A stretch of DNA of 64,000 bases, taken from positions 1 through 64,000 of the forward strand of contig JANQNK010000001.1 in assembly GCA_028279595.1 (NCBI GenBank), read 5' to 3'. Position 1 is the stretch's first letter; each line of letters begins with the position of its first letter. The notes below the pieces were generated by a model. That model saw only the letters and a list, made by a program, of their open reading frames with translations. It did no database searches and was not told the DNA's origin. The stretch is from Thermoplasmatota archaeon. Lineage in GTDB: Archaea > Thermoplasmatota > JAKEGO01. Positions 3,590 to 58,993 of the stretch are shown in pieces. A program made the position numbers and the translations under genes.

Positions 3590-3597
3590 ATATATAT
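3590..3597 (-). promoter_or_regulatory. TATA box for the beta-helix gene ending at 166
   Basis: ATATATAT is centred about 27 bases before ATG 3567, which fits a leaderless archaeal transcript. Confidence 0.5.
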
Positions 3598-3697
3598 GAT
3601 TTCTCACCCAAATTTCCTGTTACTGCATATGATCACAAATCTCTAGATGTGGGTCGACATACATTATTATCATCTTATCTTGCCCACATGACATCAA

Positions 3698-6628: not shown

Positions 6629-6913
6629 TTAGTCCCCCTCTGATAATGAGTCCGTGAATTAGTCAATAATAAGTACTCTGACCTTTTTTTTACATGAGTT
6701 GTGAATATGATACTTAAAAGAGAAATGTCCTTACTATTAATTAATAATAATGGTATTAATAAAAATAATTTTGGAATCAAGGCACGCTCAATACATAAAT
6801 TGAACTTGGAGATCCAAAATAAATTACCCTCCATTATGATGATAAATCGTAAGAATTCTAATACAAGAAATTTACGGTCATTATTGAAGTGTCAATCAGC
6901 TTGAGTATGCAAA

Positions 6914-6931
6914 TCCCGTCCGGTCCATCCT
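6914..6931 (+). repeat. 18-bp direct repeat, copy 1
   Basis: TCCCGTCCGGTCCATCCT is identical to 7089-7106, and the copies start 175 bases apart. Both lie in the intergenic region before the 570-residue beta-helix protein. Confidence 0.7.
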
Positions 6932-7088
6932 CCCCACTTCAATTACACATTGTTCTAGTCGGTGGAGGAGGATGCCGGTGGGATTCTTTCAAACCTAGAC
7001 GACTTGTTCCAATACAATACAATTACCATCACAAGCCGTCAAGGCCCTCGAAAAGTGTTCAATTCCAGTTCAGGTCCTTTCCTGCGGG

Positions 7089-7106
7089 TCCCGTCCGGTC
7101 CATCCT
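7089..7106 (+). repeat. 18-bp direct repeat, copy 2
   Basis: Identical to 6914-6931. It sits immediately before the TATA-like TTAATTATTAATA of the downstream gene, so it could be an operator or the scar of an insertion. Confidence 0.7.
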
Positions 7107-7118
7107 TAATTATTAATA
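7107..7118 (+). promoter_or_regulatory. TATA-like promoter element of the 570-residue beta-helix gene
   Basis: An A/T-only stretch centred about 29 bases before ATG 7141, consistent with a leaderless or nearly leaderless transcript. Confidence 0.45.
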
Positions 7119-7140
7119 CTGATGAGTCCGAATAGAAATC

Positions 7141-8853: not shown

Positions 8854-10962
8854 ATCCTTCTTCCAGAATGTCGTTAGCTCTGCCATCGGGTCCGCCGACA
8901 GTCTCAATCCCGGGATCTCCTTGGTGTAGTGATTTGCCCTCTTATCGAGGATCATGGCGACACCTCGGTCCTCCTCCGACCGGATGAGCCGACCAATGGC
9001 CTGCCTTATCTTCCTCCCCGCTGGAGCATGGATCGTGTATTCGAACCCACGACCGAACTTGATGTCGTAGTAATGCTGCAAGGCTCTCTGTCTCGCCGTC
9101 GGCTTCGGGAACGGCATTCCTACGATGACCACCATCTCGAGTTGCTCACCGGGGAAGTCCATACCCTCGCCGATGCGGCCGCCCATCACACCGAAGAGAA
9201 CCGGTTTCTTCGTGGAGATCGTCGGGCCTTCGGTCTCGGGGACTGCTACCTTGTCCACGGCGTCGGGGTCAGGGATGGCCTTCTTGTACTTGTTGACAAG
9301 GGTCATGAACTCGGCCTGAGACATTCCCTGCCTCTCGACGAACATCGGCCTCTTGACGCGGGCCGTCAGGCCGGAGTCCAGGAACTCGTTCATTAGGCGG
9401 TACGAGGGGAAGAAGACGGCGGAGGAACGGTCGACATTCCCGAGCCAGGTCAGAAGGTAGTTCATCATCCTAGCCCTGTTGTCATGGTCGAACCTGATCT
9501 CCTCGTATCTTGTGGTGACGTCGTTGATGTAGCCGACCTTCAGGTTCTTCGCGGGGAAGGGTGACGGTACGATCAGCAACGGGGTCTCATCAGGAAGCCC
9601 TATCGAATCCCTGTACTCGTCGAGCGGACGGAGCGTTCCGGACATGTGTACGGACGAGTGGAACGCGTTCACTGCTCCCGTCACCCTCGCCGGGTCCATG
9701 CAGAAGGCCTCAATCGCAGGGTTCGGTCCGCCGATGACGAGCTGCATGTAGTCCTCCTCCATCATCTCCCGCCAGAACGTGAGGAAGTTGGAGAGGTTGA
9801 AGAGGTACGACCTGGGCAATCTTCCGGCAGCCCTCTTGGCATCACGGATGGCTGAGCCATGTCGATGTAGGTCCGTGAGTATCTCGCCGACCCTGAGGCT
9901 CGTCACTCCGAGCCTGGACATGAGCTCCGTACCGACCTCGTACGGAGGCAGTGCGCCATCGTCCTCGTAGACGTACTCCTCGACGAGGTCGGTGATGATC
10001 TCCCTCAGTATCGCGATGAACTTGACAGCCTTCGTCTCCTCGGCAAGGAGCGGGTCCTTTGCCGACCTGGCCTCGGCGTCGCATCGGTCCAGCGAGGCCA
10101 TGGAAAGGGAAGCGGATGCGAGGTCCCGGGCGAAATCCGGAAGATTGTGAGCCTCGTCCACCACCAGCACGATGGTGTCGAGGGTGCCCATCATGCTCTC
10201 CATCCTGCGGCGCATGAACGGATGGAATGCGAAGTTGTACGGGACCACCGTGACGTCGGCCTCCGGGATCAACCTCTTTGCGGCCTCGTAGGCGCATATC
10301 CCGCGGGAGTGACACTCCTCAGAGAACCGTTCAGCAGTGGGGTGCTCCGACCACACCCATTCTGCGAGGGCGTTGATGTCGTGGTCGAGGAGCCCGGCGA
10401 AGTATCCGCAGGGTTTGATGCCCCGTCTCTGCTCGATCCGGTCCCGCCGCCTCTGCTCCTTGGAAGGACGGTCGTCGGACATCAGCAGGTCAGCCAGGCC
10501 GACACGGGACTCCGCCTCGAGGACCTCCTCGTCTATCGTCCTGGAAAGGGTGCTCTCCCTTTCACGCGCAAGCCTGGCCTCCCTGATGGCGGCCTTCTTC
10601 CTGTCCGCACACAGCAGAGTATGCTCCTCCGGGGTCGACGACTTCAGTTCCATGTCGTCCTTGGCCAGAAGGCAGAGGTTCCTCCTTCCCTGCAGGGCGA
10701 TGACGCGAATAGGTCTCTTCTCGGAGATCGCCCGGGCCTCTGCTATCACCTGTTTCTGCTGGGCGTTCGTCCTGGTGGAATAGAGTACCTTGAGCCCCTT
10801 GTCGAGGGTTACGTCGAGTATCCCCGCAAGGGCGGAGACCGTCTTCCCCGTCCCCGTCGAGGCCTCGATGACGACCGCCCTCTCCTCCTCTACCACCGAG
10901 CGGATCGCGTCGACAATGGCCATCTGTCCGTCCCTCGGAGGATACGGGAATATTTCGGACAT
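8842..10962 (-). CDS. XPD/Rad3-family iron-sulfur DNA helicase
   Basis: This is a superfamily 2 ATP-dependent 5'-3' helicase of 706 residues. The Walker A motif STGTGKT lies near residues 40-46 and the DEAH box (VVDEAHNLPDFA) near residue 268. Between them are four cysteines in the order LC...KPC...EEC...GIC, the arrangement that holds the 4Fe-4S cluster of XPD and DinG. The C-terminal half has GRIGEGMDFPG and QAIGRLIRSEEDRG, matching helicase motifs V and VI. In archaea this family acts in DNA repair or unwinding of damaged or structured DNA. ATG 10962 is about 28 bases after a TATA-like CCTTAATACC on the minus strand. XPD is the more likely identity; DinG-like naming is possible. Confidence 0.9.
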   Translation of the reverse strand: MSEIFPYPPRDGQMAIVDAIRSVVEEERAVVIEASTGTGKTVSALAGILDVTLDKGLKVLYSTRTNAQQKQVIAEARAISEKRPIRVIALQGRRNLCLLAKDDMELKSSTPEEHTLLCADRKKAAIREARLARERESTLSRTIDEEVLEAESRVGLADLLMSDDRPSKEQRRRDRIEQRRGIKPCGYFAGLLDHDINALAEWVWSEHPTAERFSEECHSRGICAYEAAKRLIPEADVTVVPYNFAFHPFMRRRMESMMGTLDTIVLVVDEAHNLPDFARDLASASLSMASLDRCDAEARSAKDPLLAEETKAVKFIAILREIITDLVEEYVYEDDGALPPYEVGTELMSRLGVTSLRVGEILTDLHRHGSAIRDAKRAAGRLPRSYLFNLSNFLTFWREMMEEDYMQLVIGGPNPAIEAFCMDPARVTGAVNAFHSSVHMSGTLRPLDEYRDSIGLPDETPLLIVPSPFPAKNLKVGYINDVTTRYEEIRFDHDNRARMMNYLLTWLGNVDRSSAVFFPSYRLMNEFLDSGLTARVKRPMFVERQGMSQAEFMTLVNKYKKAIPDPDAVDKVAVPETEGPTISTKKPVLFGVMGGRIGEGMDFPGEQLEMVVIVGMPFPKPTARQRALQHYYDIKFGRGFEYTIHAPAGRKIRQAIGRLIRSEEDRGVAMILDKRANHYTKEIPGLRLSADPMAELTTFWKKDSTL

Positions 10963-11023
10963 CGGCCTTGCCAGTGGGCCAGTCGGTATTAAGGCTTTGT
11001 TAGAACGGTGAAAGTGAACGTGT

Positions 11024-12751
11024 CTATCGTGCAGATCCGGCGACCCTCTCGTTGAGGTACATCTGGACGGCCGTGTCGATTACAGAACGTGTCTCGTCCG
11101 AGAGTGCCACGGCGGACAGCACCTCATCGAGTCCGGGGCCTGGCAGGCACCAGTAGGAAGGTATGTAGGTCCCCTCGAACGGCGCGTCGTCCGGGATCTC
11201 GACGAGTGCGCGGAGGAATACCAGGAGCCGAGTAGTTCCGTAGACCCTGCGGCTGTAGTACGGGGCTCCCCTGGGTATCAGGTCCATGTCCCGGCCGAGG
11301 GCCTCCATCGCCCGTCCGGTCACGCCGAAAAGAACGGATGTCCTGCGCTGCAGCGCCTTCATCACCGTGGGCCCCCCGTCCACCGTCGCAGTCTGCCTGA
11401 GGTACGAGAGTATCGCTGCCGAGATGACGTCCCTGTCGGTGTCGAAGTCCTTCCTGCTGACGGAATCGACCAGGGCGTCGAGGCCTCCCGACACCGCCTC
11501 TCCGAGGTCCCGACTCGATATTATCGACGCCGTCGAGTACATCGAATCCTCCAGCGCCTTCACCAGCGGAGATTGGTCGTAGAGGAACGCCGGGCGGTAC
11601 TCTGGATGGATCGCCTCCTCGTCCACGAGGAGGTCCGGCGACAGTGTGTTCGGGATCGATATATTGGCCGTTACCCTTCCGCCGGTCAGTCTGGTCATCC
11701 CTGCCTCGAGCTCCCGTGCGCGACCGTTCTCGAAGACCTTGATGAGGTTGAATATCGTCGACCTGCCGAGGGTCATGAGGCGTCTTTCAGGCCACGGCTT
11801 GAGCCTGTCGATGGCCACCATCGCCCGCCTGACATGCTTGTTCGACACGATCTCCCTGATCGCGTCGTCGGAGCTAGAGCCCACGTGGAAGTGTCCGTCG
11901 ATCCCGTTGATGAATAGCGCCCTGACGGCCCTCCTCGGCTCGTCCACACTCTCCAGGGCCTGCTCGAGTGCTGCGATGAGAAGTGACTCGGCCGACCGTG
12001 ACAGCGGATCGTGGTAGATCGTCCTGTAGGCAGCGAACCTCGCGGCCAGGATTATCTCGATCCCTCGGATGGCGTCACCGCGAACCACTATCCAGTCCCT
12101 TCCCGCCTTCTTTCCAGCGTACATCGACCTCTCGACCACGGACCTGAACAGTGTGCCCAGGTCCCGTCCGAAGGGGATGCCGGAGTAGTGAGCGTCCCTT
12201 ATCAGGTAGTCCATCCTGTCTGCGTCGACGTCGGAAGAGAGTATGGATGAAAGGATGCCAGCCTCCCCCGAGATTATCCTGAAGACGTCCGGAGCGAGGT
12301 CAGGGGTGATCTCGGAAAGTTCCGAACCCACGAACTCGAGGGTGAAGTCCTCGTGACCCCGCGCCGGTCTCCACCCGTGGCGGACGAGCTCCCCTCCATC
12401 GACGTGGAAGATATCGACGTCCGGACTCCACGACGGGTTACGGCGCAGAAGGATCTCCATGGCGTGGGAGAACGGGCCGTGGCCGACGTCGTGGACCAGG
12501 GCGGCCATGCGAACCGCGGCCAGCCCCTCCTTGTCCTTGACGAGACGTTTGTGCATGAGGGACGCCCAGTAGAGGACACCGAAGGAATGCTCGGCCCTCG
12601 TATGTGTGGACCTAGGATAACGCAGATAGGTGAAACCGTTCTGCTTGACCGAACCCAGACGGCGGAACCTGGCGCCCTCCGTCACGGTCCTCTCGGTATC
12701 ATCGAGGGCTATCCTCGCGTTCAGAACGGGGTCCAGGACCGATTCGGGCAC
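11024..12751 (-). CDS. HD-domain phosphohydrolase (COG1078, SAMHD1/dGTPase-like)
   Basis: The protein has 575 residues. The N-terminal DPVLNARIALDD...FRRLGSVKQNG and the metal-binding H...HD...D set are visible: STHTRAEHSFGV, then VHDVGHGPFSHAME, then SDVDADRMDYLIRDAHYSG. These are hallmarks of the COG1078 branch related to dNTP triphosphohydrolases. The long C-terminal part (about residues 230-575) is not recognised. The likely role is hydrolysis of a nucleotide or a nucleotide-like phosphoester; the substrate cannot be read from sequence. GTG 12751 is chosen because the family's conserved N-terminus begins directly after it and a TATA-like element lies about 26 bases upstream. It is divergent from the transglutaminase gene. 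Confidence 0.85.
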   Translation of the reverse strand: MPESVLDPVLNARIALDDTERTVTEGARFRRLGSVKQNGFTYLRYPRSTHTRAEHSFGVLYWASLMHKRLVKDKEGLAAVRMAALVHDVGHGPFSHAMEILLRRNPSWSPDVDIFHVDGGELVRHGWRPARGHEDFTLEFVGSELSEITPDLAPDVFRIISGEAGILSSILSSDVDADRMDYLIRDAHYSGIPFGRDLGTLFRSVVERSMYAGKKAGRDWIVVRGDAIRGIEIILAARFAAYRTIYHDPLSRSAESLLIAALEQALESVDEPRRAVRALFINGIDGHFHVGSSSDDAIREIVSNKHVRRAMVAIDRLKPWPERRLMTLGRSTIFNLIKVFENGRARELEAGMTRLTGGRVTANISIPNTLSPDLLVDEEAIHPEYRPAFLYDQSPLVKALEDSMYSTASIISSRDLGEAVSGGLDALVDSVSRKDFDTDRDVISAAILSYLRQTATVDGGPTVMKALQRRTSVLFGVTGRAMEALGRDMDLIPRGAPYYSRRVYGTTRLLVFLRALVEIPDDAPFEGTYIPSYWCLPGPGLDEVLSAVALSDETRSVIDTAVQMYLNERVAGSAR

Positions 12752-29392: not shown

Positions 29393-29423
29393 ACCCAAGA
29401 CAGCTTTGAATTCGGGGATACAG

Positions 29424-29810
29424 ATGGGCGGCAAGATAGTCGAGCTCGATGCAGAAGGACTGAATGAAGCCCTTGAAGGGGAGAAGCTTGTCGTCGTTGA
29501 GTTCTTCTCCCAGACCTGTCCCAACTGTCAGTCGATGGCACCCGTCTTCTCGAAGATAGCGAACGACCTCGGCGGTGAAGCGACCTTCGCCATGGTAGAT
29601 GTGCAAGCCCACACCTCGCTCGCCTTCACCTTCGCCGTGATGTCGGTCCCGACCTTCATGTTCTTCTGCAGGGGGAGGCCCATCGGCAGCATCGTCGGCG
29701 CCCTCAACGAGACCCTGCTGAGGAACTCGATCCGGGACGCCCTCTCCCACAGGGAGGAGTGCGTGACCAGATCGACGCCGATAAGTTACGACATGGACGG
29801 ATACGCCTAG
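29424..29810 (+). CDS. Thioredoxin-like protein
   Basis: The 128-residue protein has a thioredoxin fold with a CPNC redox centre (VVEFFSQTCPNCQSMAP), the cis-Pro turn in MSVPTFMFF and FRGRPIG-like strand residues. It is probably a cytoplasmic disulfide reductase or glutaredoxin-like exchanger. The C-terminal 25 residues (EECVTRSTPISYD...) extend beyond a minimal thioredoxin and add a third cysteine. ATG 29424 is preferred over TTG 29406. Confidence 0.88.
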   Translation: MGGKIVELDAEGLNEALEGEKLVVVEFFSQTCPNCQSMAPVFSKIANDLGGEATFAMVDVQAHTSLAFTFAVMSVPTFMFFCRGRPIGSIVGALNETLLRNSIRDALSHREECVTRSTPISYDMDGYA

Positions 29811-29876: not shown

Positions 29877-29906
29877 TGTCTTTCACTCTTTTCTGTAATG
29901 GTTCCC

Positions 29907-29915
29907 TTTATATAC
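29907..29915 (+). promoter_or_regulatory. Second TATA box in the aglB leader
   Basis: TTTATATAC is centred about 27 bases before ATG 29938, the start of a 20-codon leader frame. A third A/T core (ATATAAA, 29929-29935) follows. Confidence 0.45.
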
Positions 29916-29937
29916 TCAAGGTGAAAGGATATAAAGG

Positions 29938-30000
29938 ATGAGTTCTTACGACGTTGCACCGCACTCATTCGTAAGTGGGACGGACGGACAGCCTGTCTGA
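29938..30000 (+). CDS. Possible 20-residue leader peptide upstream of aglB
   Basis: The frame reads MSSYDVAPHSFVSGTDGQPV and ends 55 bases before the aglB start, in a different frame. Its ATG lies where a leaderless transcript from the TATA box at 29907-29915 would begin, and AAAGG precedes it. A regulatory uORF is possible, but a chance frame of this length is also plausible; no homolog is known to me. Confidence 0.25.
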   Translation: MSSYDVAPHSFVSGTDGQPV

Positions 30001-30055
30001 AGCACTACGGATCGACGACAGACGCGGACCATCGACACAGGACAAGGGAACAGGG

Positions 30056-33000
30056 ATGAAAATGAAAGCACGAACGTCATCCGGTGGCACTCCCCTGGGT
30101 GCGATCTGGAAGGAGGCGAAGAGGAACTGGAAGACCATCATGATACTGATGGTTCTGTTCCTGATCGGTCTCACCCTAAGATCGTACTACTACTACCAGG
30201 AGAGTGTTGAGAGCGAGGTCGAACTCTCTGGGAACGATCCCTATTATCACAAGAGGGTCATCGACTACGTTCAGGATGAGAAGACACACCTGGTGAGGGA
30301 CCCGCTCCTCGGGTACCCGGCCAAGCCGCACAACCCGCGGCCGCCTCTGTTCGACTGGTCCATCGCGGTCGAGGGACTCGTGTTCGGGACCTTGTTCGGC
30401 AGTCTCGGGGCGACCACACTGTTCATAACCCAGATGACGCCATCGTTCTGGGGGGCGCTCACCATCATCCCGGTATACTTCCTCACGAAGGAGTACTTCG
30501 GAAAGAAGGCCGGCCTGTGGGCGGCACTCTTCCTAACGATAATGCCCTCCCACATCGACCGTTCATCCTTCGGTTTCGCTGACCACGACTCGTTCGTACT
30601 CTTCTTCGTGGTCGTAACCTTCTTCTTCCTCGCGAAGTCGCTGAGGCATCTGAAGGCGAAACGATGGATAGACAACTTCCTCTCCCCGAGGAGCGTGGCC
30701 AAGGGCCTAAGGAGGTTCGGGAACGAGAACTTCCTCTCCCTCGGATACGCCATGATGGCGGCGTTGTCGCTCGCCACCATAGCCCTCGCCTGGAAGGGAT
30801 TCAGCTACGTTGTCGCCATAATCATGGTTTACTACCTCGCGCAGTTGATCATCAACACGTTCAAGCACGAGGACTCCACGGGGGTCGCGGCGGTCATCCT
30901 GATATTGTTGACCGTGCCGCTCCTGCTGGCCCTTCCGGCATACGGCTCGATGAACATGATCTGGTCCCAGTGGGGGCTCAGACCCGTCATCTACATCTAC
31001 GTCGGCGCATGGGCATTGACCCTGGCCTTCGTCCCGACCAGGGACGTTCCGTGGATCATCCTGCTTCCTGCACTGGCCATTGCGGCCGGCATTGTCTACA
31101 CACTGCTGAACATGTTCAATCCGGATCTCGCCGAGACGCTCATCAGCGGCGGCGGATACTTCGTCAAGACGAAGCGGTACTCGACGATCGCAGAGGCTCA
31201 GGCACCCATCCTCAGCCGGCTCATAGTCAGTTACGGACCGGTGACCTTCTTCTTCGCCCTCATCGGGATACTGTTCGCCTTCGTCCGCTTCACGCGGCAC
31301 TGGAGGACCGATGAACTGTTCATCGTGATCTGGGCGTTCGTCTCGATCTTCATGGCCATCTCGGCCGTTCGGTTCATGTTCAACGCCGCACCGGCGTTCG
31401 CCATCCTTCAAGGATGGATCGTCTTCCTGCTGTTGAAGAAGACAGACTTCCGAGCAATCTCGCGGTCACTTCAGGGATTCTCGGGCCAGTTCTGGTACGG
31501 ACTGCGCAAGGGCCTGAGGGTGCGCCACGTGGCCGTGGCGCTGTTCATGGTCTTCATGGTGGTACTGCCGAACTTCTGGCTCGCGTTCGATGCATCCCTC
31601 CCGTACGAGAAGAAACGGGAGATCGACAACCAGATATACGACTCCATGCCCGAGTTCCTCCGGCCGGAGAAGTACAACGAGCAGAACACCCTCTGGTGGA
31701 CCGGCGCCTTCGGACAGGGCTTCCCGTCCGAGTACTGGCACGAGTTCTTCGAGTGGCTCGCCCAGCAGGACAACGAGTACGAAACGGAGGAACGGCCAGC
31801 GTTCATGAGCTGGTGGGACTACGGCATGTGGTGCGTCGAGATCGGCGAACACCCCACCGTTGCCGACAACTTCATGAACGGTCACGAAATGGCCGGGAAC
31901 TTCATCGCCTCGCCCAACGAGACGAACTCGCTGTCTCTCCTCGTCGTCCGGACGCTCGAGTACGAGCTCCGGGACACGAAGGGCGAAAACGAGGCGACCG
32001 CTCTGATCAAGGAGCACCTCGGCGATGAGAACGGCAGCCTGTTCATCGATGCCATCAGGAACCCCAGGAAATACATCGACAGGATCAACGCCCATCCCGA
32101 ACTGTTCGGCAACAAGGACGGCCTCCGGGTCGGTAACGCCCGGTTCGCCATGGCCTCCCACGTCATCGAGAAGAACCTCGAGGACGAGGAGATCATCGAC
32201 TTCCTCGTCGACGCCGAGAGACTGACCGGCAACTGGATACGGTACTTCGCCGTCGATTCGAGGATGTTCCCGTTCAGCTACTACAACACCGGTATCTTCT
32301 ACGCTCCGATCACACTTTCGGACCACGCGGTCTCCGACTACCTCGACACCATGGTGCAGGTGGGCAACCAGCTCTACACACCTGAGGAGTTCGAGAGGCG
32401 CCTCGCGCTGGACCCGGACCTCGAGGCGGACGACCTCGTTCTGACCTACACGCCGGCGTTCTTCGACACCATGTTCTACAAAGCCTACATCGGTTACAGC
32501 GCCCTCGACATCGGGGGCAATCTGTCCATGGGCATCCCGGGGATCTCCGGGGAGCTCGCGGCACAGCCGCCGATGCAGGGCTGGATGATGAAGCACTACA
32601 AGCTCATCTACAAGACGACCTACTACAACCCGTACAACTCGTCCCTCCGGACGAAGCACCAGGACGACTGGGAGATCATCCACTTCGACGAGGCTGTCGA
32701 GAAGCAGGGTGACGAGAACGTGACCGGGACGGTCGATACCCAGACAGGACTGGTCCAGGGCGTCATGGTCCTCAAGTACTACCACGGTGCGAAGATATCC
32801 GGCCGTGTGACGACCGAGGGCGGCGTGGGCATCCCCGGCGCCGTCGTCACGATATACGACGAGTACGGCATCCCGCACGACCTTGCGGAGACCGACGACG
32901 AGGGCAACTACAATGTAATAGCACCCTCCGGGGAGGTCGTCCTCAGGGCGAGCAAGGGCGGCGACTTCAACCCGTTCTTCCAGACCTTCAACGATGTCCT

Positions 33001-36000
33001 CCAGGAGGAGAAGTTCAACATCACCGAGGCCCAGGCAGAGAGGCTGACCGAGGACCTCGACGGAGACGGACGGTACGACTACCTGATCGAGATGGACCTC
33101 ATCGCGAACTCCACCCACATCAACGGGACACTGTTCTGGGACGACGACGGCGACGGAGACCTCGACGACAACGAGGAGGTCATAACGGGCGCCGAGGTCG
33201 AGCTCACCGGCTCGAACATCATCTCGCTCACGACCGACGGGGAGGGCAACTTCAGCACTCCCGACGCCATCGAGACGGACTACGAGTTCGTCTTCATCCA
33301 GGACGGCAACAGGTACGAACTGGACCAGACGATATCATCGGACGGCAATCAGTCCGTCGAGGAGATGGTCCCGATCGAGGGCCTGACCGTCGAGGGGCGC
33401 GTCACGATAAACGACTCCAACGCAAGGGACGTCGAGGTAACGCTCCATGACACCGAGGCCGACATGACATACGTCACGGAAACCAACGGCAAGGGACTCT
33501 TCACGTTCGAGCGCATCCTTCCCGGAACGGACGGGAACGCGGAGTTCGAGATCACATTCGAATACGAGGGCTCCATCCCGGTCACCAGGACGTTCAACGG
33601 CCGGCTCGGCAGGAACGAGGAGGTCAACGTACAGCTGACCGGCGCCTCGGTCCTTGACGGGACGGTGACGGTGGACATGGACGGCGACGGGATATCCGAC
33701 GGCACGGTCCCGAACGCCCTGGTGGTCGCAACGGGAGACGGGACATCCTACGAGGCGATGTCCGATGCCAACGGCGACTATTCGATGGTCGTACCCGAGG
33801 GGAGCTTCATCGTATCTGCCCGCTCGGCGAACGCCGACGGACAGCTCGGCGGCGACGCCAAGGGTGAATCCCCAGGGTCGGCCAACGTCCGTATCGAACC
33901 GCTGTACTGTCTCGGCGGAACCGTCTACATCGACGGCGACGAGGACGACGAGTTCGACCAAGGGATCGATTCGGTCAGCTCGAACGCGCTGGTATCGATC
34001 ACCGGCTCATCCCAGTGGTCCGGCGTGGCCAACCAGGACGGGACCTTCACGGCCCTCCTTCCATACGGCGATTACTATGTGACCGCATCCCACGACCCGA
34101 CCGGCACCAATAGCACATACCTGAACACCAGCTGGGTCTCCCTGGACGCGTCGAGGTCCATCGACCTTCAGCTTACCCAGAGCGAGACCGTCAGCGGTTA
34201 TCTCTACTGGGACAGGAACGACAACGACCTTCCGGACGGTGACGAGTACATCGACGGTGTGCCGTTGACCTTCACTGGCGACCACGAGTTCACGACCATG
34301 ACCGGCGGAGCCCAGTTCCAATCGACCCAGCTCTTCGGGAACGGCTTCTTCTTCAACACGTTCTCGTACTCGACGGGATCCAACGGGTCCTTCGAGGCAC
34401 AGCTGATCCCGGGGAACTACACGGTCTCGATACCGAACTTCGAGGACGTCGAGCTGCCGGAGGGCGACGACATCCTCCTGGATATGACGCCTCTCGAGAC
34501 GACCTTCAGGGGCGACGTCTGGGCCGACGGGAACTTCGACACGGTCGTCGATCCATGGGAGGTCCCCTCGGCGGGCCTCGAGATCACGTTGACGAACACA
34601 CGGGACCAGAACGACGTTATCGTGACGGCCACCGGTGCGAACGGCCGCTTCATCGCATCCCTGATGCCAGGCACCTACGAGGTCAGCATCAACGGGACCG
34701 ACGGCAACGACGTCATGTTCCAGGGCGGAACATTGCTGGACATCCCATACGGCGAGGCCGAGGTCGAGACCGATATCCTGGTCTACCAGCTCTTCCACGT
34801 CATCCCCGAGTACTACATCGACGGGTCCCAGGAGGACCTCGTCTTCGGGCCCGACGACGAGTTCAGGATCGTGGCCTCGGAGGCGAGATGGAACCTGAGC
34901 GTCCCGAACGAGTTCGGCGATCCGGACTGGACCGAGGGCGGGTTCATCTTCCCCGGCGAGTACGACGTCTACATATCCCACGACGGCTACGCCTACATGG
35001 GAGACATCAACGCGACCCAGAGCCAGTCCTACCGATTCGACCTCCGGCCGGGGGTCCAGTACACGGGCGAGGTCAGGACGGTCGATCAGGGACAGACGGT
35101 CAACCGGGACGTCGGAGAACTGGCGATCTCGTTCAGGACCCAGGACGATGTATACCTCACAGAGTTCCTAACCCTGGACCCGATCGGCAACGATTACAAT
35201 TTCAGCGCATTCCTCCCGCCGGGGGACATCGACGTATCGATAGACCATACCCATCTGAACGACGTCTATCTGCTGGATGGACCGCTCACCAACGGTTCCA
35301 TCGAGATGGTCCGTCACTTCAGGATCACCGGGAAGGTCTATTACGATGAGGACCAGGACGGCAACCGCGACTCGAGGGAGGGCCTCGAGGGTGTCGAGCT
35401 GTCGTTCACAGGCGACAACACGTTCAATGTCACCACCGAGGAGAACGGGGATTACACTGTCTATCTGCCCTTCGGCACCCACGGATCGTACAACATCTCC
35501 TTACCCTCTTCCGACTACGTCGAGATCGCTCCTGACCTGGTCGCCGTGCCTGCTGGCACCACGCACATAAGGGTCCAGCCGAGGAACCTCACGGTAACCG
35601 GTACGACCTTCAATGACATCGACATGGACGGCCAGTCCGATGCTGGCGAGGCGGTCGACGCCGACAGGATAGTGTTCATACCCGATTTCGGCACGACGGT
35701 CTCCGTTACACCGTCCGGCGCGAACTACACGGTAGACCTTGCTCCAGGGCCTTACACGGTACACGCCTACTCCGACGACCATGCGGTGATCACCGAGGTG
35801 GACGTTTCCATCGGCAACGATACCGTCATCGACCTGAACATGACCGAGGCCGTCAGCGTAACAGGTACGATCTACTATGTCAACATGACAGGGGATACCA
35901 TCCTCCCGTCCACAGCGGACCTGAAGAAGGAGTTGAGCCTGGCGGGAGATGAGGGAACCATTCTCGTCCCTGTCCATACCGGCCAGTATCAGGTCGTGGT

Positions 36001-37300
36001 GCCCGTCGGCAGGTACAAGGTCAAGGCTACTGCCGAGATGGACGAGTACGGCATCACGAGCGAGTACGCGGTCAACAAGAACTACCAGTTCGAGACCGAG
36101 ATCATGAACTTCGAGCTCCCCAGGGACGACGACTATTCCGTCAGGGTCCGCTGGGACGAGGAGGCCGTAAGGACGCTGCCCGGCACGATGGTGGACTACA
36201 CGATCACCGTGCAGAACACCGGGAACATGCTCATGAACCGCGTCGACGTCACCTCGCAGAACGCACCGGACGGCTGGAACGTCACCTTCGGGAACGAGAC
36301 CTCCACGAGGGTGGACCTCGGACTGAACGAGACCGTCGAGGTCGTCGTGACCATCGCACTGCCATCGGTCACGGAATCCGGTCTCCAGGATGTCAGGATC
36401 AGGGCTGTCCCCCTCGAGGCGGCGTCGGACGACGACTCCGAGACCCTCGAGGTCAACGTGAGCGCGACATACTCGTTCAAGCTTGATGTACTTCGTCCCG
36501 AGAACGGCATTGGCCAGAACATGACCGCCATCATCGATTTCGTCGTCGTGAACCTGGGGAACGCCGAGGACACGTTCATCATCGAACCCCCTGTCGATCC
36601 GGCCGGGTTCACACTCGATATGATGAACGGGACCATGCACCCGATGATCGACACGGACGGTGACGGAGAGCTCGACACCGGCCCGATAAGGGCCTTCGAG
36701 CCCCAGCCGGTGTTCATCAACGTGACCACCGCGGCCGACGCGACCGGCAAGGTAAGCCTGCCCGTGAGGGTAACATCCGTCACATCGGGGATCACGAAGA
36801 CCGCCTATCTGTCGATCCAGGTGATAGACCCCGACATAGGGGTCAACTCGCTGGTGGCCACCGAGACGGCCATCGGCGACGACACGTTCGTCGACCTCTC
36901 CTTCAACGTCTCGAACACGGGGCTCCGCGATGTGGACAACATCGACATCGAGTTCTTCATGGACGGCGATCCGATCGGTTCACGCGACGATGTGATCTAC
37001 AACGGCGCGCCGGTCGGGAACGGGACCATCAACTCGCCGATCGGGCTGAACCTGTCGCTCTCGGTGAGCATCCAGGTGAACTCGACTGGAACGCACACCT
37101 TTGACGTTGTCGTGACACCTGCCGACGATCCCGACGCCCACATGGGCGACAACAGGGCGTCGACGGAGCTGAAGGTTGGGAAGACGGCCTCTGACGACGA
37201 GGGCGCCGACGATTCCATCGTCCAGTTCCTTGCGGTCGCGATAGTCATACTGGTCCTGCTCATCGTGTACGGGGTTTACAGGAGAAAGAGGCGCTGGTAG
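30056..37300 (+). CDS. aglB: Giant STT3/AglB oligosaccharyltransferase with surface repeat extension
   Basis: AglB transfers a lipid-linked glycan to Asn in secreted proteins. This one has about 2,414 residues, far above the usual 800-1,000. The STT3 membrane part (about residues 20-500) has GNDPYY (Asp61), DHD (176-178) and a TIAE motif (377-380). The catalytic WWDYG is at 586-590. From about residue 910 come roughly twelve carboxypeptidase-regulatory or SdrD B-like beta-sandwich repeats (G-x-V...GVELTFTG...NGDYTV..PG.Y.V), several opening with Asp-rich loops such as DDDGDGDLDD that could bind calcium. Three NEW3/CARDB-like domains follow (about 2025-2370), then a final transmembrane helix and YRRKRRW. 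The repeats should lie outside the membrane. ATG 30056 (or 30062) is taken as the start; GTG 29975 is an alternative. Confidence 0.93.
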   Translation: MKMKARTSSGGTPLGAIWKEAKRNWKTIMILMVLFLIGLTLRSYYYYQESVESEVELSGNDPYYHKRVIDYVQDEKTHLVRDPLLGYPAKPHNPRPPLFDWSIAVEGLVFGTLFGSLGATTLFITQMTPSFWGALTIIPVYFLTKEYFGKKAGLWAALFLTIMPSHIDRSSFGFADHDSFVLFFVVVTFFFLAKSLRHLKAKRWIDNFLSPRSVAKGLRRFGNENFLSLGYAMMAALSLATIALAWKGFSYVVAIIMVYYLAQLIINTFKHEDSTGVAAVILILLTVPLLLALPAYGSMNMIWSQWGLRPVIYIYVGAWALTLAFVPTRDVPWIILLPALAIAAGIVYTLLNMFNPDLAETLISGGGYFVKTKRYSTIAEAQAPILSRLIVSYGPVTFFFALIGILFAFVRFTRHWRTDELFIVIWAFVSIFMAISAVRFMFNAAPAFAILQGWIVFLLLKKTDFRAISRSLQGFSGQFWYGLRKGLRVRHVAVALFMVFMVVLPNFWLAFDASLPYEKKREIDNQIYDSMPEFLRPEKYNEQNTLWWTGAFGQGFPSEYWHEFFEWLAQQDNEYETEERPAFMSWWDYGMWCVEIGEHPTVADNFMNGHEMAGNFIASPNETNSLSLLVVRTLEYELRDTKGENEATALIKEHLGDENGSLFIDAIRNPRKYIDRINAHPELFGNKDGLRVGNARFAMASHVIEKNLEDEEIIDFLVDAERLTGNWIRYFAVDSRMFPFSYYNTGIFYAPITLSDHAVSDYLDTMVQVGNQLYTPEEFERRLALDPDLEADDLVLTYTPAFFDTMFYKAYIGYSALDIGGNLSMGIPGISGELAAQPPMQGWMMKHYKLIYKTTYYNPYNSSLRTKHQDDWEIIHFDEAVEKQGDENVTGTVDTQTGLVQGVMVLKYYHGAKISGRVTTEGGVGIPGAVVTIYDEYGIPHDLAETDDEGNYNVIAPSGEVVLRASKGGDFNPFFQTFNDVLQEEKFNITEAQAERLTEDLDGDGRYDYLIEMDLIANSTHINGTLFWDDDGDGDLDDNEEVITGAEVELTGSNIISLTTDGEGNFSTPDAIETDYEFVFIQDGNRYELDQTISSDGNQSVEEMVPIEGLTVEGRVTINDSNARDVEVTLHDTEADMTYVTETNGKGLFTFERILPGTDGNAEFEITFEYEGSIPVTRTFNGRLGRNEEVNVQLTGASVLDGTVTVDMDGDGISDGTVPNALVVATGDGTSYEAMSDANGDYSMVVPEGSFIVSARSANADGQLGGDAKGESPGSANVRIEPLYCLGGTVYIDGDEDDEFDQGIDSVSSNALVSITGSSQWSGVANQDGTFTALLPYGDYYVTASHDPTGTNSTYLNTSWVSLDASRSIDLQLTQSETVSGYLYWDRNDNDLPDGDEYIDGVPLTFTGDHEFTTMTGGAQFQSTQLFGNGFFFNTFSYSTGSNGSFEAQLIPGNYTVSIPNFEDVELPEGDDILLDMTPLETTFRGDVWADGNFDTVVDPWEVPSAGLEITLTNTRDQNDVIVTATGANGRFIASLMPGTYEVSINGTDGNDVMFQGGTLLDIPYGEAEVETDILVYQLFHVIPEYYIDGSQEDLVFGPDDEFRIVASEARWNLSVPNEFGDPDWTEGGFIFPGEYDVYISHDGYAYMGDINATQSQSYRFDLRPGVQYTGEVRTVDQGQTVNRDVGELAISFRTQDDVYLTEFLTLDPIGNDYNFSAFLPPGDIDVSIDHTHLNDVYLLDGPLTNGSIEMVRHFRITGKVYYDEDQDGNRDSREGLEGVELSFTGDNTFNVTTEENGDYTVYLPFGTHGSYNISLPSSDYVEIAPDLVAVPAGTTHIRVQPRNLTVTGTTFNDIDMDGQSDAGEAVDADRIVFIPDFGTTVSVTPSGANYTVDLAPGPYTVHAYSDDHAVITEVDVSIGNDTVIDLNMTEAVSVTGTIYYVNMTGDTILPSTADLKKELSLAGDEGTILVPVHTGQYQVVVPVGRYKVKATAEMDEYGITSEYAVNKNYQFETEIMNFELPRDDDYSVRVRWDEEAVRTLPGTMVDYTITVQNTGNMLMNRVDVTSQNAPDGWNVTFGNETSTRVDLGLNETVEVVVTIALPSVTESGLQDVRIRAVPLEAASDDDSETLEVNVSATYSFKLDVLRPENGIGQNMTAIIDFVVVNLGNAEDTFIIEPPVDPAGFTLDMMNGTMHPMIDTDGDGELDTGPIRAFEPQPVFINVTTAADATGKVSLPVRVTSVTSGITKTAYLSIQVIDPDIGVNSLVATETAIGDDTFVDLSFNVSNTGLRDVDNIDIEFFMDGDPIGSRDDVIYNGAPVGNGTINSPIGLNLSLSVSIQVNSTGTHTFDVVVTPADDPDAHMGDNRASTELKVGKTASDDEGADDSIVQFLAVAIVILVLLIVYGVYRRKRRW

Positions 37301-38032: not shown

Positions 38033-40960
38033 TCACTCGACTATGAACTCGAAGCTGCAACCGGCGCATCTGACGGTAGCGGGACGCTTCGCTGGAATGT
38101 AGACGGCGACCCCGCACATCGGACAGGGGGCCTCTGTCGCCATCGAGACCTCGTCATCGACCGCCTCGGAGGTGGGAGGTTCCGGCTCGGACACCTCGAC
38201 CTCCTCCCCAGGCTCCTCTTCCATCTCCTCCTCGACCTCTTCCTCTATCTCGTCGACGATCCTGGAGGGACGCCTTGCGGGGATCCGGTGCCCCTCCTCG
38301 GACGGAAGCAGGGCCTCAAGTTCCTCGAGCTTCTTCTTGAACTTCTTTGCACGCCTGGTGTGCTTCTCGTCGTCCTTCTTCAGCTTTCGGATCTTCCGCT
38401 GTGAGCCGGCGAGGGCGATCAACAGGACCAGGATGACCACGATGAGGACCATCGCTACCAGGTACATGATGTCGAAACCATCGTCATCATCATCCGAGAC
38501 CGCCTCCTTGACATGGAGGGGAACATGGGTGTCCATGGTCTCGATCCCATCGGAGGTCAGATACTGGGCTGTCAAAGTCACCGTGTAATCGCCAGCGACA
38601 AGGTCGGTGACCATGACCGTACCGTTGGGCGATGTTACATTGTATGATTTGGCTATGGTATCATAACGATGATCCTGCCGTATTGTTAGGAATGCTCCAA
38701 GAAATTCACCATCCCCCCCCCATGGATTCGTTTGATAGCCCAATACGAACGTTTTCCGGTTCTCGACCGAAGTGGGTACATGGACCTCGGCCCACCCTTC
38801 GAAATAGAGGACGATGGAACCCTCAACGGCCCTTCCATTGTCGAAGGCGCGGACGGTCACCTTGACGAAATCATCATCCCAGCCCGAAGGCACATATATT
38901 CTGAAGTCACCCACTGAAGAGCTCAAGTTCCCCGATCGAAGGCCGCCCAAGGCCTCGTATTCGATGACCGCATCTTCGGTCACATTTGGAACTGCATATC
39001 TGATCATGAACCCGTTCCCACTCCGGCGAACTGGATATTTCCCTACATGTTCGATAAAGACCTGGGACGAGGTCACCTCGATGTCTAGCGAACCCGTGAC
39101 CAGGGATCCGTTCACCACTGCCGATCCAAGGAGTCTTACTGTTCCGTCGGACTCCGGCATGGTGATCGTTATCTCCTCCTCGGTGGTCCCTGCATCAAAC
39201 GCCCCATCAAGGAATTCAGCCACGTAATCGACCCTGGCTGTGACGGATTCATTACTATCCATAACGACTACGTTGTAGTCGGCATCCTCCCCAGCTACTA
39301 CGATCTCAGGTCCAATGAATGAAAGGCTGCGGGATCCTCCCGAGACCGATACGATATGCCTTGTGGTAGGATACCCGACCGATGATATCGAAATCGAGTG
39401 GCTGCCCTCCTCCATGGATCCATGAAAAAGGACCGCTTTCCCGGAGCCATCCGTGGTCAGGTCCGTTTCCTCGCTCCCGACCTCGACCTCAATATCGACA
39501 TTCCTGACCGGTGATGACACCTTCTCGATCGTATATCCGGAGGATTCAACGAAATAAATGAGGTCACCCACTCGCATCAACGGTCTGTCGAATGGGTCGG
39601 TCCCCTCTGACATCGGTGGCACATAGGAGGTGACATCGCCATGCGGAGTCCGGATCCACCAAACCGGCCTCTCCCCGAGAATCTCGGTCGAGATCGTTAG
39701 CTTCAGAGGCTCGTCGGTCCCGAAGTGCGTGGCCCCCTCGACAGTTATGATCGGCTCTCCGAAGGCCAATGGCACGGTCTTCCTCACGGTCCTGGACGAG
39801 ATGTTGAGATAGAACTCGATCCTGTTATCGGCGCCGGTGGCCCAGAGGGAGTCTCCGTAGACCACGTCAGGCACGCTCGTGAACGTGTCATATCCGTTGA
39901 GCTTGTTGAGCTGGTCCTGGACCCTCTCCACACCGTCCACGGTGTTGTAGATCACGTCCCAGTCGAGCTCCTCGAAGTCATCGAGCCCCATGCCGATGTC
40001 CCGTGCCGAGAAGTAGGTCTTGGTCAATGAACCAGGTTCATACACATCCATGGTGGTGTCGGCCCAGAGGTCGCAGTAAGAGACGTGGATCCTATCCCTG
40101 AACATCGTTACGCCGTCCAGCAACATGGTCAAGGTGTAGAATCCCGGGTCCCCGGAGCCCGGAAGGGCAACGTCGGTCGTCTCGTATATGTTCGAATTCT
40201 GTACGCTTCCGGAGGGGGAGATGACGCTCATGTCGAGGTCTAGCGAGGTGTGGACCGTTATCGTCTCGCCGAAGTGATAGATGTCCTTTGCAGGGAACAC
40301 GGAAACATCCGAGACGGTGAACGTACCGATCAGTCCACCGAACTCCGTCCTAAGCTCATAGATGCCGGGGTCGTATGTCAGCGGTATCTCGAACCCGCCC
40401 TCGGGGCCTTCGAGGGGATCGCTGACAGAGGAGTGCTGGTCGTCGTAGACCTCGATGGTCCCGACATCGGTGACGTTCGTGACGGCAAGGTCGTTGAGGA
40501 CGGAATACCAGACGGTGTCCCCGGGGGCGTAGAAGGTCCGGTCCGTCGTAACACCCAGCAGGTCCAATGAGACGCTGTCCAGGAAGAACCCGTCACCGCC
40601 GCCCCAGCCGTCCTGGCTGTCGGGGTCGCATACTGAATAGACGTAGGTTCCAGCGTATGGATAAGAGGTGGCAAGGCTAACGTTGAACCAGCCATCGGCC
40701 TCGGAAGTGAACGGCCATCCCTCCGGGAGGTACGATCCGTCAGGGAACATGGTGTACAAGGCGGCGCTGTCGATGAGGGGTGTTCCCCCGTCATGCACGA
40801 ACACCGTCATGTTGACGTCCCCACCCGGGAGGAGTGCTCCAGTCCCGGGATGGTCGACGCTCTCCATCGTGAGGTCGGCCTCGAAACCGGAGGCACCACC
40901 CGCTGCCATGGCTATCGTTAGAATACATACTATCATCAGGCCCCGCACAACCCAACTCAT
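38033..40960 (-). CDS. Large membrane-anchored surface protein with cytoplasmic zinc ribbon
   Basis: The 975-residue protein has a signal segment (about residues 5-25, ending GGASG) and then some 800 residues of extracellular Ig-like/macroglobulin-like strands. Phrases such as YPYAGTYVYSV, YAPGDTVWYSV, HFGETITVHTS and TVTLTAQYLTSDG recur. A transmembrane helix lies near 820-845, followed by a charged coiled coil (KIRKLKKDDEKHTRRAKKF), an acidic Pro/Glu linker, and a C-terminal zinc ribbon with CPMCG and RCAGC. The likely role is adhesion or sensing; there is no known family name. ATG 40960 is preceded by GGTGG; ATG 40981 with a TATA-like element at 41001-41010 is an alternative. A run of nine G (coding strand) lies inside the gene at 38714-38722. 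Confidence 0.75.
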   Translation of the reverse strand: MSWVVRGLMIVCILTIAMAAGGASGFEADLTMESVDHPGTGALLPGGDVNMTVFVHDGGTPLIDSAALYTMFPDGSYLPEGWPFTSEADGWFNVSLATSYPYAGTYVYSVCDPDSQDGWGGGDGFFLDSVSLDLLGVTTDRTFYAPGDTVWYSVLNDLAVTNVTDVGTIEVYDDQHSSVSDPLEGPEGGFEIPLTYDPGIYELRTEFGGLIGTFTVSDVSVFPAKDIYHFGETITVHTSLDLDMSVISPSGSVQNSNIYETTDVALPGSGDPGFYTLTMLLDGVTMFRDRIHVSYCDLWADTTMDVYEPGSLTKTYFSARDIGMGLDDFEELDWDVIYNTVDGVERVQDQLNKLNGYDTFTSVPDVVYGDSLWATGADNRIEFYLNISSRTVRKTVPLAFGEPIITVEGATHFGTDEPLKLTISTEILGERPVWWIRTPHGDVTSYVPPMSEGTDPFDRPLMRVGDLIYFVESSGYTIEKVSSPVRNVDIEVEVGSEETDLTTDGSGKAVLFHGSMEEGSHSISISSVGYPTTRHIVSVSGGSRSLSFIGPEIVVAGEDADYNVVVMDSNESVTARVDYVAEFLDGAFDAGTTEEEITITMPESDGTVRLLGSAVVNGSLVTGSLDIEVTSSQVFIEHVGKYPVRRSGNGFMIRYAVPNVTEDAVIEYEALGGLRSGNLSSSVGDFRIYVPSGWDDDFVKVTVRAFDNGRAVEGSIVLYFEGWAEVHVPTSVENRKTFVLGYQTNPWGGDGEFLGAFLTIRQDHRYDTIAKSYNVTSPNGTVMVTDLVAGDYTVTLTAQYLTSDGIETMDTHVPLHVKEAVSDDDDDGFDIMYLVAMVLIVVILVLLIALAGSQRKIRKLKKDDEKHTRRAKKFKKKLEELEALLPSEEGHRIPARRPSRIVDEIEEEVEEEMEEEPGEEVEVSEPEPPTSEAVDDEVSMATEAPCPMCGVAVYIPAKRPATVRCAGCSFEFIVE
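38714..38722 (-). repeat. Nine-base homopolymer tract inside a surface-protein gene
   Basis: CCCCCCCCC on the plus strand (poly-G in the coding sense) encodes part of WGGDG in the extracellular region. Such tracts can slip during replication and switch the frame. Confidence 0.7.
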
Positions 40961-41048
40961 CGTGTCCACCCGTCCACGCATCCACTTCGGATTATTAAAT
41001 CCTTTTTAAAGGAACGGGAAATGGGGACCGATCCACTAGAAAACCAAT

Positions 41049-41267: not shown

Positions 41268-41338
41268 GGTGATCCTGCATCGATAATCCCCACCGTATTT
41301 ATCGATGCCGGTTGAATGGGGACCCAGGCCCCCGAAAA

Positions 41339-41346
41339 GTATTAAG
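41339..41346 (+). promoter_or_regulatory. TATA box of the PQQ-like propeller gene
   Basis: GTATTAAG is centred about 28 bases before ATG 41371, consistent with a leaderless transcript. Confidence 0.45.
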
Positions 41347-41370
41347 AACGCTAAGGGGTCTCTAGTCGGT

Positions 41371-42864
41371 ATGCCGGGCTCATGGAGATGGGGTATCATA
41401 CTATCTATCCTCATCATCGTCCTCGTATCGCAGGGTGGGTCCGCAAATCGGGGATGGAGCGCCTCATACGGGGACGAGGTCCATTCGGCCCGCTTGGTCG
41501 ATGACTCCCTCTATCTCCTCATCGAGCAGGACTCCGTGATGTACCTTTCAAGGGTCGACAACGGCAGCCAGGTATGGCGGTATCCCCTCCCCGAGGGAAG
41601 TCCGGTGGTGGTACCCGCTGTATCCGGGGACATTGTCGTCACTCCTTTCGGTCGGGGTACCGCGGGCATCAACATAACCGACGGCAGCCTCATGTGGAAC
41701 ATCTCGGTCGAGCTGGCCGACGACCCCGAGATCGACGGTGCATTGATGTTCCTCCCGAACGGGTCGAGGCTCTCTGCGCGGTTCACCGGTGCACAGCACG
41801 AGGAGCTATGGAACGCATCGCTCTTCGAGGACCTCCGTTTCATTCTCCCAATCGATGACCTCGTGGTCCTCGGACACGGCGACGGCGTTGTCTCGGCGCT
41901 CAACAGGTCCGACGGCTCCACTGAATGGTTCGTGATCCCCGAAGGCGTCGAGCTTGGCCGGCCTCTCGTCGCGGGCGACGTGATCTACGTGGTCAGCGGC
42001 AACTCAACCTCAGGTGACCTGAACGCCATCAACGTCGGCGGATACATCGAGTGGACCCGGGAGATCGGTCCGACGGAGGCTCCTCCGCTGGCGTTCGACG
42101 GCATCACCGTGGTAACGGTCGACGGCCTTGTACGCTCGTATACCGAGAACGGGACGGCAACGAGATTGAACAGCACTGGATTGGCCGTATCCGATGCCTT
42201 TTCCGCCGACGATCGGATCTACGCCCTCACCCCCTCCGGCAACCTTACCGAGGTCATTCTTATGAACGGTTCTGCCGTCCCCGGTTGGAACCTGAGCGTC
42301 GGGACCCGCCTGGCACCGGTCGGTGTCGGTGACGGCCTAATACACGTTCATGATGGGAGTGGAAGCGTCATTGCCATCGATGGCGTCCCGTTGCAGGACC
42401 CGTTCCTCGTTCCCGGCTCGCTTTTCCTGGCGCACGATCCCCCCCTCGAGGGTTACGAGACGACCGTCAACTTCGGTGTCGGGAACCGGGGCACTGCACC
42501 CTCCAGCATTGTGGTCTCCGTCAACATCGACGGCGAGGAGTTCGATAGGAAGGCCGTCGCCATCGGACCCGGCGACGTCATCCCGATCGAGGTCCCGTGG
42601 AAACCCTCCCTGGGGGATACCACGGTCACGGTCTCGATGGAGGTCGATGGCGATGAGATATCCTACACCGACGACGAGCTGGAGATGACCACCGAGGTCG
42701 TGCAGACCGTCGAAGAGGACGACATGGAATTCCTCATGACCATCCTCGTAGGATTCGTCATACTATGGGGTCTCCTGATAGTCATCGCCATCGTCTGGAG
42801 GAAGTACGTCCACCGGACAAAACGTGTTGGCGGAAAGGGAGAGGCCGAGGAGGATGAGAAGTAG
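41371..42864 (+). CDS. Membrane-anchored PQQ-like beta-propeller protein
   Basis: The 497-residue protein has a signal segment (about residues 5-23). Propeller blades of the pyrroloquinoline-quinone-like type occupy about 25-350, seen in NGSQVWRYPLPEG, DGSLMWNISVEL, DGSTEWFVIPEG and NVGGYIEWTREI. A CARDB-like beta-sandwich follows (YETTVNFGVGNRGTAPSSIVVSVNIDG, about 365-450), then a transmembrane helix (about 452-472) and a charged tail. It is probably a surface protein with a scaffolding or binding role; no catalytic residues are evident. The start is supported by the TATA box at 41339. Confidence 0.82.
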   Translation: MPGSWRWGIILSILIIVLVSQGGSANRGWSASYGDEVHSARLVDDSLYLLIEQDSVMYLSRVDNGSQVWRYPLPEGSPVVVPAVSGDIVVTPFGRGTAGINITDGSLMWNISVELADDPEIDGALMFLPNGSRLSARFTGAQHEELWNASLFEDLRFILPIDDLVVLGHGDGVVSALNRSDGSTEWFVIPEGVELGRPLVAGDVIYVVSGNSTSGDLNAINVGGYIEWTREIGPTEAPPLAFDGITVVTVDGLVRSYTENGTATRLNSTGLAVSDAFSADDRIYALTPSGNLTEVILMNGSAVPGWNLSVGTRLAPVGVGDGLIHVHDGSGSVIAIDGVPLQDPFLVPGSLFLAHDPPLEGYETTVNFGVGNRGTAPSSIVVSVNIDGEEFDRKAVAIGPGDVIPIEVPWKPSLGDTTVTVSMEVDGDEISYTDDELEMTTEVVQTVEEDDMEFLMTILVGFVILWGLLIVIAIVWRKYVHRTKRVGGKGEAEEDEK

Positions 42865-57643: not shown

Positions 57644-58993
57644 ATGAGACGGGTGCTGATGGTCGGAGTGGTATTGCTGTTCCTAATTATTATTTCTGGA
57701 ACAGAAGGAAATCCAATTTACATTGATGTGGATGCAGATGTCGAAATTGAAGACGGTTCTATTCAAAACCCTTATTCCACAATCCAGAAAGGAATCGATA
57801 ATGCAACTGCAAATGATAACATAATCATTCGGGCAGGGAATTATCGCCAATTTAGAATCAATGGTTTGAGATCATTGCAGATCTATCCGTACGGATATTA
57901 CAATGATAGTCTAGAATCAGTTACTGTATTCATTCCTCGACACAATAGATCAATCTTCATACATAACTCGACCAATATATTCATTCATGGATTGAATATT
58001 CTAGCTGAAAACGCTTATAATGGCCGTGGGGTCTATATTAACGCCAGTAACAATATTTCAATATCAAACATATCAATCTCACACCATCATTTCGATGGAG
58101 TCCAGATACGAGCTTCCGATTCTATCAAAATTTCGAACTCGAGATTTTACGATTGTGCAAAGGCAATCAAGATTCTCACTTACAATTCCTCCTCGATAAC
58201 CATTGATAATAACACTATAAGTGATTCCACAAATGGCATAAAACTTTTTCATACTCAAGGTGTCATAGTAAATAATAATTCGATTTTTCAATGCTACAGG
58301 GGAATCTATATAGATGAATCGTACAACAACGTTATAACAAACAATGAATTCTATAATAACTCACATTCAGGAGTGACAATTCTCAATAATTCATATAACA
58401 ATTCAGTCTTCAATAATCAATTCGTTAATAATGGGGATCACAATTCACAAGGGATTGATCATGGTGTAAACAACAGTTGGGACGATGGTGCATATGGGAA
58501 TTGGTGGTCAGATTACTCTGGTATCGATATTGATGGAAATGGAATTGGTGATGAACCTTATCACATCAATAGCTCATACAATGTTGCAGACCGATATCCA
58601 TTAATGGATACTACCAACATTTTCACCGTTACGTTATTTATCAATCCCAATCCATCCGTTCAGGGCCAGCTTGTAGACATAATCCTGTCAATAGAGCAAG
58701 ACGTCGATTGGGTAAGCATGAGAGTCTACCTTCACATTGATGGTGACCTTCACGATAGTTTCATGACAGACTTGAATGGAACGATAATTCACCATTTTAC
58801 ATGGAAGGCTTCAAGCAAAGGCACACACGAGATCCGAGTAACCATGGAGGGCGTCGTCACAGAAGAAGTCAACAGGACTATCGAAGTTCGTCCCTCCACA
58901 TCTGATAGCTCTACCTCAATCCCCGACTACGCGTATTTTATATTGGCCGCTACGACGGTCTTCCTCGCTACATACCGACGAAGATCCTTCTAA
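57644..58993 (+). CDS. AT-rich secreted beta-helix protein with IPDY C-terminal anchor
   Basis: The 449-residue protein has a signal segment (about residues 4-22), a NosD-type entry (IYIDVDADVEIEDGSIQNPYSTIQKGI) and beta-helix turns to about residue 290. A GDEPYHINSSYNVADRYP marker follows, then a beta-sandwich-like domain (about 320-415), a Ser-rich spacer and IPDYAYFILAATTVFLATYRRRSF. From the EPY marker on it parallels the gene at 166-3567, 54 kb away, so the two look like members of one surface family. A TATA-like GGTATAAG lies about 35 bases before ATG 57644. It is sharply AT-rich (a sampled row has 17 G/C in 60) against GC-rich neighbours, suggesting acquisition or relaxed composition. 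Confidence 0.85.
   Translation: MRRVLMVGVVLLFLIIISGTEGNPIYIDVDADVEIEDGSIQNPYSTIQKGIDNATANDNIIIRAGNYRQFRINGLRSLQIYPYGYYNDSLESVTVFIPRHNRSIFIHNSTNIFIHGLNILAENAYNGRGVYINASNNISISNISISHHHFDGVQIRASDSIKISNSRFYDCAKAIKILTYNSSSITIDNNTISDSTNGIKLFHTQGVIVNNNSIFQCYRGIYIDESYNNVITNNEFYNNSHSGVTILNNSYNNSVFNNQFVNNGDHNSQGIDHGVNNSWDDGAYGNWWSDYSGIDIDGNGIGDEPYHINSSYNVADRYPLMDTTNIFTVTLFINPNPSVQGQLVDIILSIEQDVDWVSMRVYLHIDGDLHDSFMTDLNGTIIHHFTWKASSKGTHEIRVTMEGVVTEEVNRTIEVRPSTSDSSTSIPDYAYFILAATTVFLATYRRRSF

Follow-up and report, generated by a model that had tools for sequence, protein, structure and literature searches.

A predicted oligosaccharyltransferase with a long external tail, conserved in most of the archaeal phylum Thermoplasmatota

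The window analysed is a stretch of 64,000 nucleotides from a Thermoplasmatota archaeon. Its giant aglB gene, located inside a contig of 253,890 bases, is a single uninterrupted frame on the + strand (29975-37300, with the stop codon ending at 37300). Translation from the ATG at 30056 gives 2,414 amino acids, and an in-frame GTG at 29975 would give 2,441. The ATG is supported as the start because, with this numbering, the WWDYG motif begins at residue 586 both in the window protein and in a 59%-identical relative (L033). A search of the genome with PF02516 identified this AglB as the sole STT3 protein. Directly upstream, behind rps7 and EF-2, is a gene for a thioredoxin-like protein with a CPNC motif (29406-29810, +). 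The rps7/EF-2 neighbourhood is common only to the nearest relative and is not conserved more widely. The features of the locus are as follows.

29906..29938, +, two A/T-rich TATA-like stretches, TTTATATAC and GATATAAAG, upstream of aglB; a candidate archaeal promoter, read directly and by eye only
30056..37300, +, giant aglB (STT3 oligosaccharyltransferase), 2,414 amino acids
30113..31600, +, STT3 transmembrane domain, amino acids 20-515, with D61, DHD 176-178 and TIAE 377-380 (motifs, Pfam, fold)
31601..32770, +, AglB extracellular catalytic domain, amino acids 516-905, with WWDYG (586-590) at 31811-31825 (motifs, sequence search, model)
32771..33025, +, first transthyretin-like (CarboxypepD_reg) domain, amino acids 906-990 (Pfam, conservation, model)
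33053..36670, +, six DxDxDG loops, at amino acids 1000, 1029, 1207, 1764, 1854 and 2199; candidate Ca2+ sites (motif)
33083..36145, +, transthyretin-like domains 2-12, amino acids 1010-2030 (Pfam, motifs and predicted strands, by eye)
36146..36790, +, two NEW3-like domains, amino acids 2031-2245, with approximate boundaries (Pfam, model)
36791..37180, +, CARDB-like domain, amino acids 2246-2375; together with the following helix it matches the second half of the protein encoded downstream in other lineages
37214..37297, +, C-terminal membrane helix (residues 2387-2413) and basic end YRRKRRW (model)

The catalytic core has every expected element of an AglB/STT3 enzyme, i.e., the STT3 fold, the first Asp, the second acidic motif, TIxE and WWDYG. 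The Pfam STT3 match covers residues 55-501, and 21 relatives all share D61, T377, E380 and WWDYG 586-590. The AlphaFold2 model of residues 1-1100 (pLDDT 87, pTM 0.81) showed with confidence a complete AglB followed by two beta-sandwiches. Among proteins of solved structure, Archaeoglobus fulgidus AglB (PDB 3waj, 3wak, 5gmy and 7e9s) is the nearest, both by sequence (1.6e-47) and by the fold of the model (4.7e-29). This enzyme shares with the window protein the STT3 membrane domain, the first Asp, the acidic/His motif, TIxE, WWDYG and the external domain, but it is about 870 amino acids long and lacks the transthyretin-like and NEW3/CARDB array as well as the C-terminal membrane helix. The window gene is thus predicted to encode a functional archaeal N-glycosylation enzyme with an intact catalytic core. 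The protein also matches positions 1-759 of the 831 in TIGR04154, the archaeosortase-associated STT3 profile (2e-73), but its score of 248 bits is below the cut-off of 450, and by NCBI's criterion it is not a member of that family. Two divergent long AglBs (L069 and L070, family f17) lack the WWDYG motif.

Past about residue 905 the protein continues for about 1,500 residues with some 15 small domains: about 12 transthyretin-like domains, a count made by eye on the basis of repeat motifs and strand predictions, and three NEW3/CARDB domains, followed by the C-terminal membrane helix. Pfam detected five CarboxypepD_reg stretches (1e-33), three SdrD_B stretches (2e-11) and a NEW3 domain at 2043-2118. 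Single tail domains therefore belong to the broad CarboxypepD_reg and SdrD_B families of surface repeats, whereas in AglB they are joined to an integral-membrane enzyme and add up to a near-constant total length. The AlphaFold2 model of residues 1215-2414 is all beta with one terminal helix (pLDDT 76); its pTM of only 0.37 means that it does not give the spatial arrangement of the domains. An earlier note on this DNA had described a complete catalytic STT3 part followed by an external, membrane-reanchored array, and had proposed structure modelling to predict the domain boundaries. The first part of that description agrees with the intact motifs, their invariance in relatives and the AglB fold of the core. 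The second is borne out by Pfam, the terminal helix and the models, in which the core and two beta-sandwiches are confident and the outer tail is a chain of beta-sandwiches arranged with low confidence.

A search of 60 related genomes with the core detected AglB in 59 of them, and many of the open frames were 2,060-3,210 amino acids long. Among the named genomes, 52 of the 55 complete AglB genes encode more than 1,800 amino acids, these 52 in fact all exceeding 2,050, and the terminal membrane helix is present in 50 of these 52 long proteins. In a scan of the whole phylum the AglB frames were mostly 2,060-3,300 amino acids long, including those of the single-contig genomes G033, G049 and G252. 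The genomes concerned belong to Thermoplasmatota and include those of Methanomassiliicoccales, marine groups II and III, and DHVE2. The long architecture appears, from these sequence comparisons, to be a conserved feature of most of the phylum. The window's genome is metagenome-like, with 21 contigs and 86% completeness, as could suit a misassembly or a read-through fusing AglB to an adjacent surface-protein gene, but the identical architecture in dozens of independent genomes, some of them single-contig, rules this artefact out for practical purposes. Since frames of 2,060-3,300 amino acids recur across the phylum, the length is neither due to chance nor to an assembly join; the comparison of AglB lengths that the earlier note had called for came out in its favour, and the misassembly that it had raised as a counter-explanation was rejected. 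One contig labelled Flavobacteriaceae TMED121 (L140) bears an AglB of the Thermoplasmatota type and probably comes from a mislabelled or mixed genome.

In some families AglB has only 1,023-1,427 amino acids; these short forms retain the first transthyretin-like domain and a few others but lack the NEW3/CARDB domains and the terminal helix. No tail gene was found beside the short AglBs. A separate tail frame was found in only one genome, the single-contig G016 (L053), where aglB is divided, through a sequencing error or a real split, into two overlapping frames, 7712-12520 (-) and 2946-7883 (-), the second of which matches at 73% the tail of a relative whose gene is whole. In the core tree, rooted at its midpoint, the short AglBs are nested within the long ones and two changes are needed. 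This nesting makes shortening the likelier derived state, and the midpoint root leaves the ancestry of the long form likely rather than proven. The ancestor of Thermoplasmatota probably already had a long AglB.

Conservation is uneven along the tail. The first transthyretin-like domain is the most conserved, with a relative entropy of 1.9 versus about 0.9-1.4 further out, and it is retained in short AglBs. The tails of relatives are only about 14-31% identical to that of the window, and yet the length after WWDYG is 1590 +/- 66 residues in 44 AglBs that have a separate partner gene (described below). A length so narrowly held at such low identity argues for a fixed geometry and against a freely varying stalk. 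The DxDxDG loops behave differently from what would be expected of a calcium-binding rod of the SdrD_B type, in which they should be conserved. There are six in the window and 0-9 in relatives, and whole lineages (L041-L043, L049-L051) have none. The Asp-rich, calcium-type loops pointed out before are therefore real in the window protein, but the motif is not kept in several relatives and calcium binding was rejected as a general function of the tail.

The tails are rich in glycosylation sequons. Across 73 distinct tails there are 1,963 N-x-S/T motifs and 1,077 reversed ones, and the D-x-S/T control showed no comparable excess. At the N+2 position Thr is 2.8-fold and Ser 1.4-fold over composition, with no other residue above 1.1. 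After removal of the N-Y/F-T repeat motif, N-x-T still outnumbers T-x-N (1,177 versus 508), and the window tail alone has 33 sequons versus 15 reversed. Such enrichment in the external part, as in surface glycoproteins, is what N-glycosylation of the tail itself would be expected to leave, and the tail is probably glycosylated. The enrichment is also consistent with the earlier idea of the tail as an element of the surface or envelope.

A long aglB is directly followed in 48 loci by a gene for an anchored CARDB protein of about 260 amino acids. This gene has the same orientation as aglB and often overlaps it or starts within 4 bases. Examples are listed below.

L036, 5146-5976, -, partner gene
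L129, 16198-16962, +, partner gene
L123, 8354-9121, +, partner gene
45 more loci

The partner protein starts with a signal or N-terminal helix, followed by an Ig-like and a CARDB domain, a C-terminal helix and a basic end. It matched no family beyond CARDB. An identity with TRAP-beta was rejected: TRAP-beta was matched by just 2 of the 28 members (best E about 0.01), and CARDB by 26. When a partner profile was compared to the genomes, full-length matches were found only in the class with partner-bearing aglB loci, mostly at the aglB position; a partial match in G034 is on a contig other than that of aglB. Where the downstream partner is absent, as in the window, AglB itself terminates in a CARDB-TM module to which the second half of the partner can be matched (6e-9 for the window). 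The de-duplicated set includes 38 loci with the separate gene only, 22 with the fused module only, one with neither and none with both; L090, outside that table, has both forms, weakly (15.7 bits). A Rosetta-stone reading of this pattern was rejected. It represents only 2-3 changes on the tree, L090 weakly combines both forms, and other surface proteins of these genomes commonly carry the CARDB-TM module as an anchor, with 30 matches in the window's own genome. Because of the few events and the commonness of the module, the split/fused pattern is weak evidence of a shared complex. The gene pair, in contrast, is good evidence of a functional association, stronger than that from the fusion pattern, and the downstream CARDB protein is a candidate accessory subunit of the oligosaccharyltransferase. 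The same module also forms the C-terminus of a 519-amino acid PQQ-type beta-propeller protein encoded in the window (41305-42861, +).

A profile of the tail found human NOMO2 as its best match in the PDB (5e-40; the next different protein was at 2e-9), and the Pfam family NOMO_5th was matched by 22 of 32 tails. NOMO, a component of the BOS complex of the eukaryotic multipass translocon, is like the tail a single-anchored transthyretin-like array but has no STT3. With an unrelated CarboxypepD_reg array of the window's genome as a control, no NOMO match was obtained. Orthology was nonetheless rejected. The alignments are not colinear, with the same two profile repeats matching several NOMO repeats. 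The window tail alone, as a single-sequence query, found neither NOMO nor anything else. PF23194 (NOMO_5th), run as a single domain over 60 genomes, had no match above the cut-off and two below it, both in AglB frames. In a fold comparison of the tail, general multi-Ig proteins ranked first and NOMO was absent from the best 50. The similarity seems to be only a likeness of repeats in a similar membrane-anchored layout, and not membership. That the tail and the downstream CARDB protein form an accessory module at the translocon, like NOMO or other eukaryotic accessory subunits and possibly sharing ancestry with them, is very improbable.

The reading that we tentatively prefer, with a probability of roughly 0.45, is that the tail is a built-in accessory subunit or scaffold of the enzyme and that the long AglB is probably ancestral, a role that we infer from the architecture alone. 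The chain would exit the catalytic domain through the conserved first beta-sandwich and arch outside the membrane until the last helix pins it back, so that both ends are anchored. As a built-in accessory subunit, the tail could bring the enzyme together with the translocation exit and with envelope proteins as they emerge, while it is itself being glycosylated. In lineages with the separate membrane-anchored CARDB protein encoded downstream, this protein would likely be part of the same complex. This reading is favoured by the single STT3 with invariant motifs and a core like that of A. fulgidus AglB, by the first tail domain being both the most conserved and retained in short forms, by the same-strand partner gene in 48 loci, and by the narrow tail length with N-x-S/T enrichment against a flat D-x-S/T control. 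It is weakened by the short AglBs, which show most of the array to be dispensable in some lineages, by the low-confidence spatial course of the tail and by the commonness of the CARDB-TM module on other surface proteins.

The main rival is that the tail is a structural part of the envelope. In cells whose S-layer is scant or absent, the enzyme itself would form a pseudo-wall or glycocalyx that is glycosylated and anchored at both ends. A beta-sandwich array with strong sequon enrichment would suit such a role, and the fold comparison lists multi-domain Ig arrays, one of them, at rank 30, being a pentameric S-layer protein. In a metatranscriptome study of marine group II (PMC9723583), the genes enriched during transcriptional activity of one genus include one for an oligosaccharyltransferase, long or short. 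However, these genomes have many other large surface proteins, and the best-conserved portion of the tail adjoins the active domain instead of lying in the outer portion. Enzymes, moreover, are normally too scarce to coat a cell. We consider this explanation somewhat unlikely. It is also doubtful, and rather more so, that the tail is mainly a tether or spacer for the enzyme, or a means of capturing glycans or acceptor proteins in cis, with a near-neutral number of domains and no structural or accessory role. The outer repeats diverge fast and short forms have lost most of them, as such a function would allow, but the length is narrowly held in the 44 divergent sequences and the terminal anchor is kept in 50 of the 52 long forms.

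To our knowledge, the characterised archaeal oligosaccharyltransferases are single-subunit enzymes under about 1,100 amino acids. In most of this phylum the oligosaccharyltransferase is two to three times as large; it bears a conserved arm outside the membrane and, in many lineages, is accompanied by a linked partner gene. Should the arm prove to be an accessory module, it would illustrate a way of building accessory oligosaccharyltransferase functions in archaea. No description of the long AglB architecture was found in the open-access papers searched. The phylum-wide architecture, the conserved first tail domain and the accompanying CARDB gene in many lineages go beyond the earlier reading of this gene.

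Another gene of the window (38033-40981, -) encodes a predicted surface protein of 982 amino acids, which had no Pfam match at 1e-5. It has a signal, a beta-rich ectodomain, one membrane helix and an acidic tail in the cytoplasm, at the end of which two cysteine motifs form a zinc-ribbon-like pair. Several large right-handed beta-helix (NosD-like) proteins are encoded at 166-3573 (-), 3698-6628 (-) and 57644-58990 (+).
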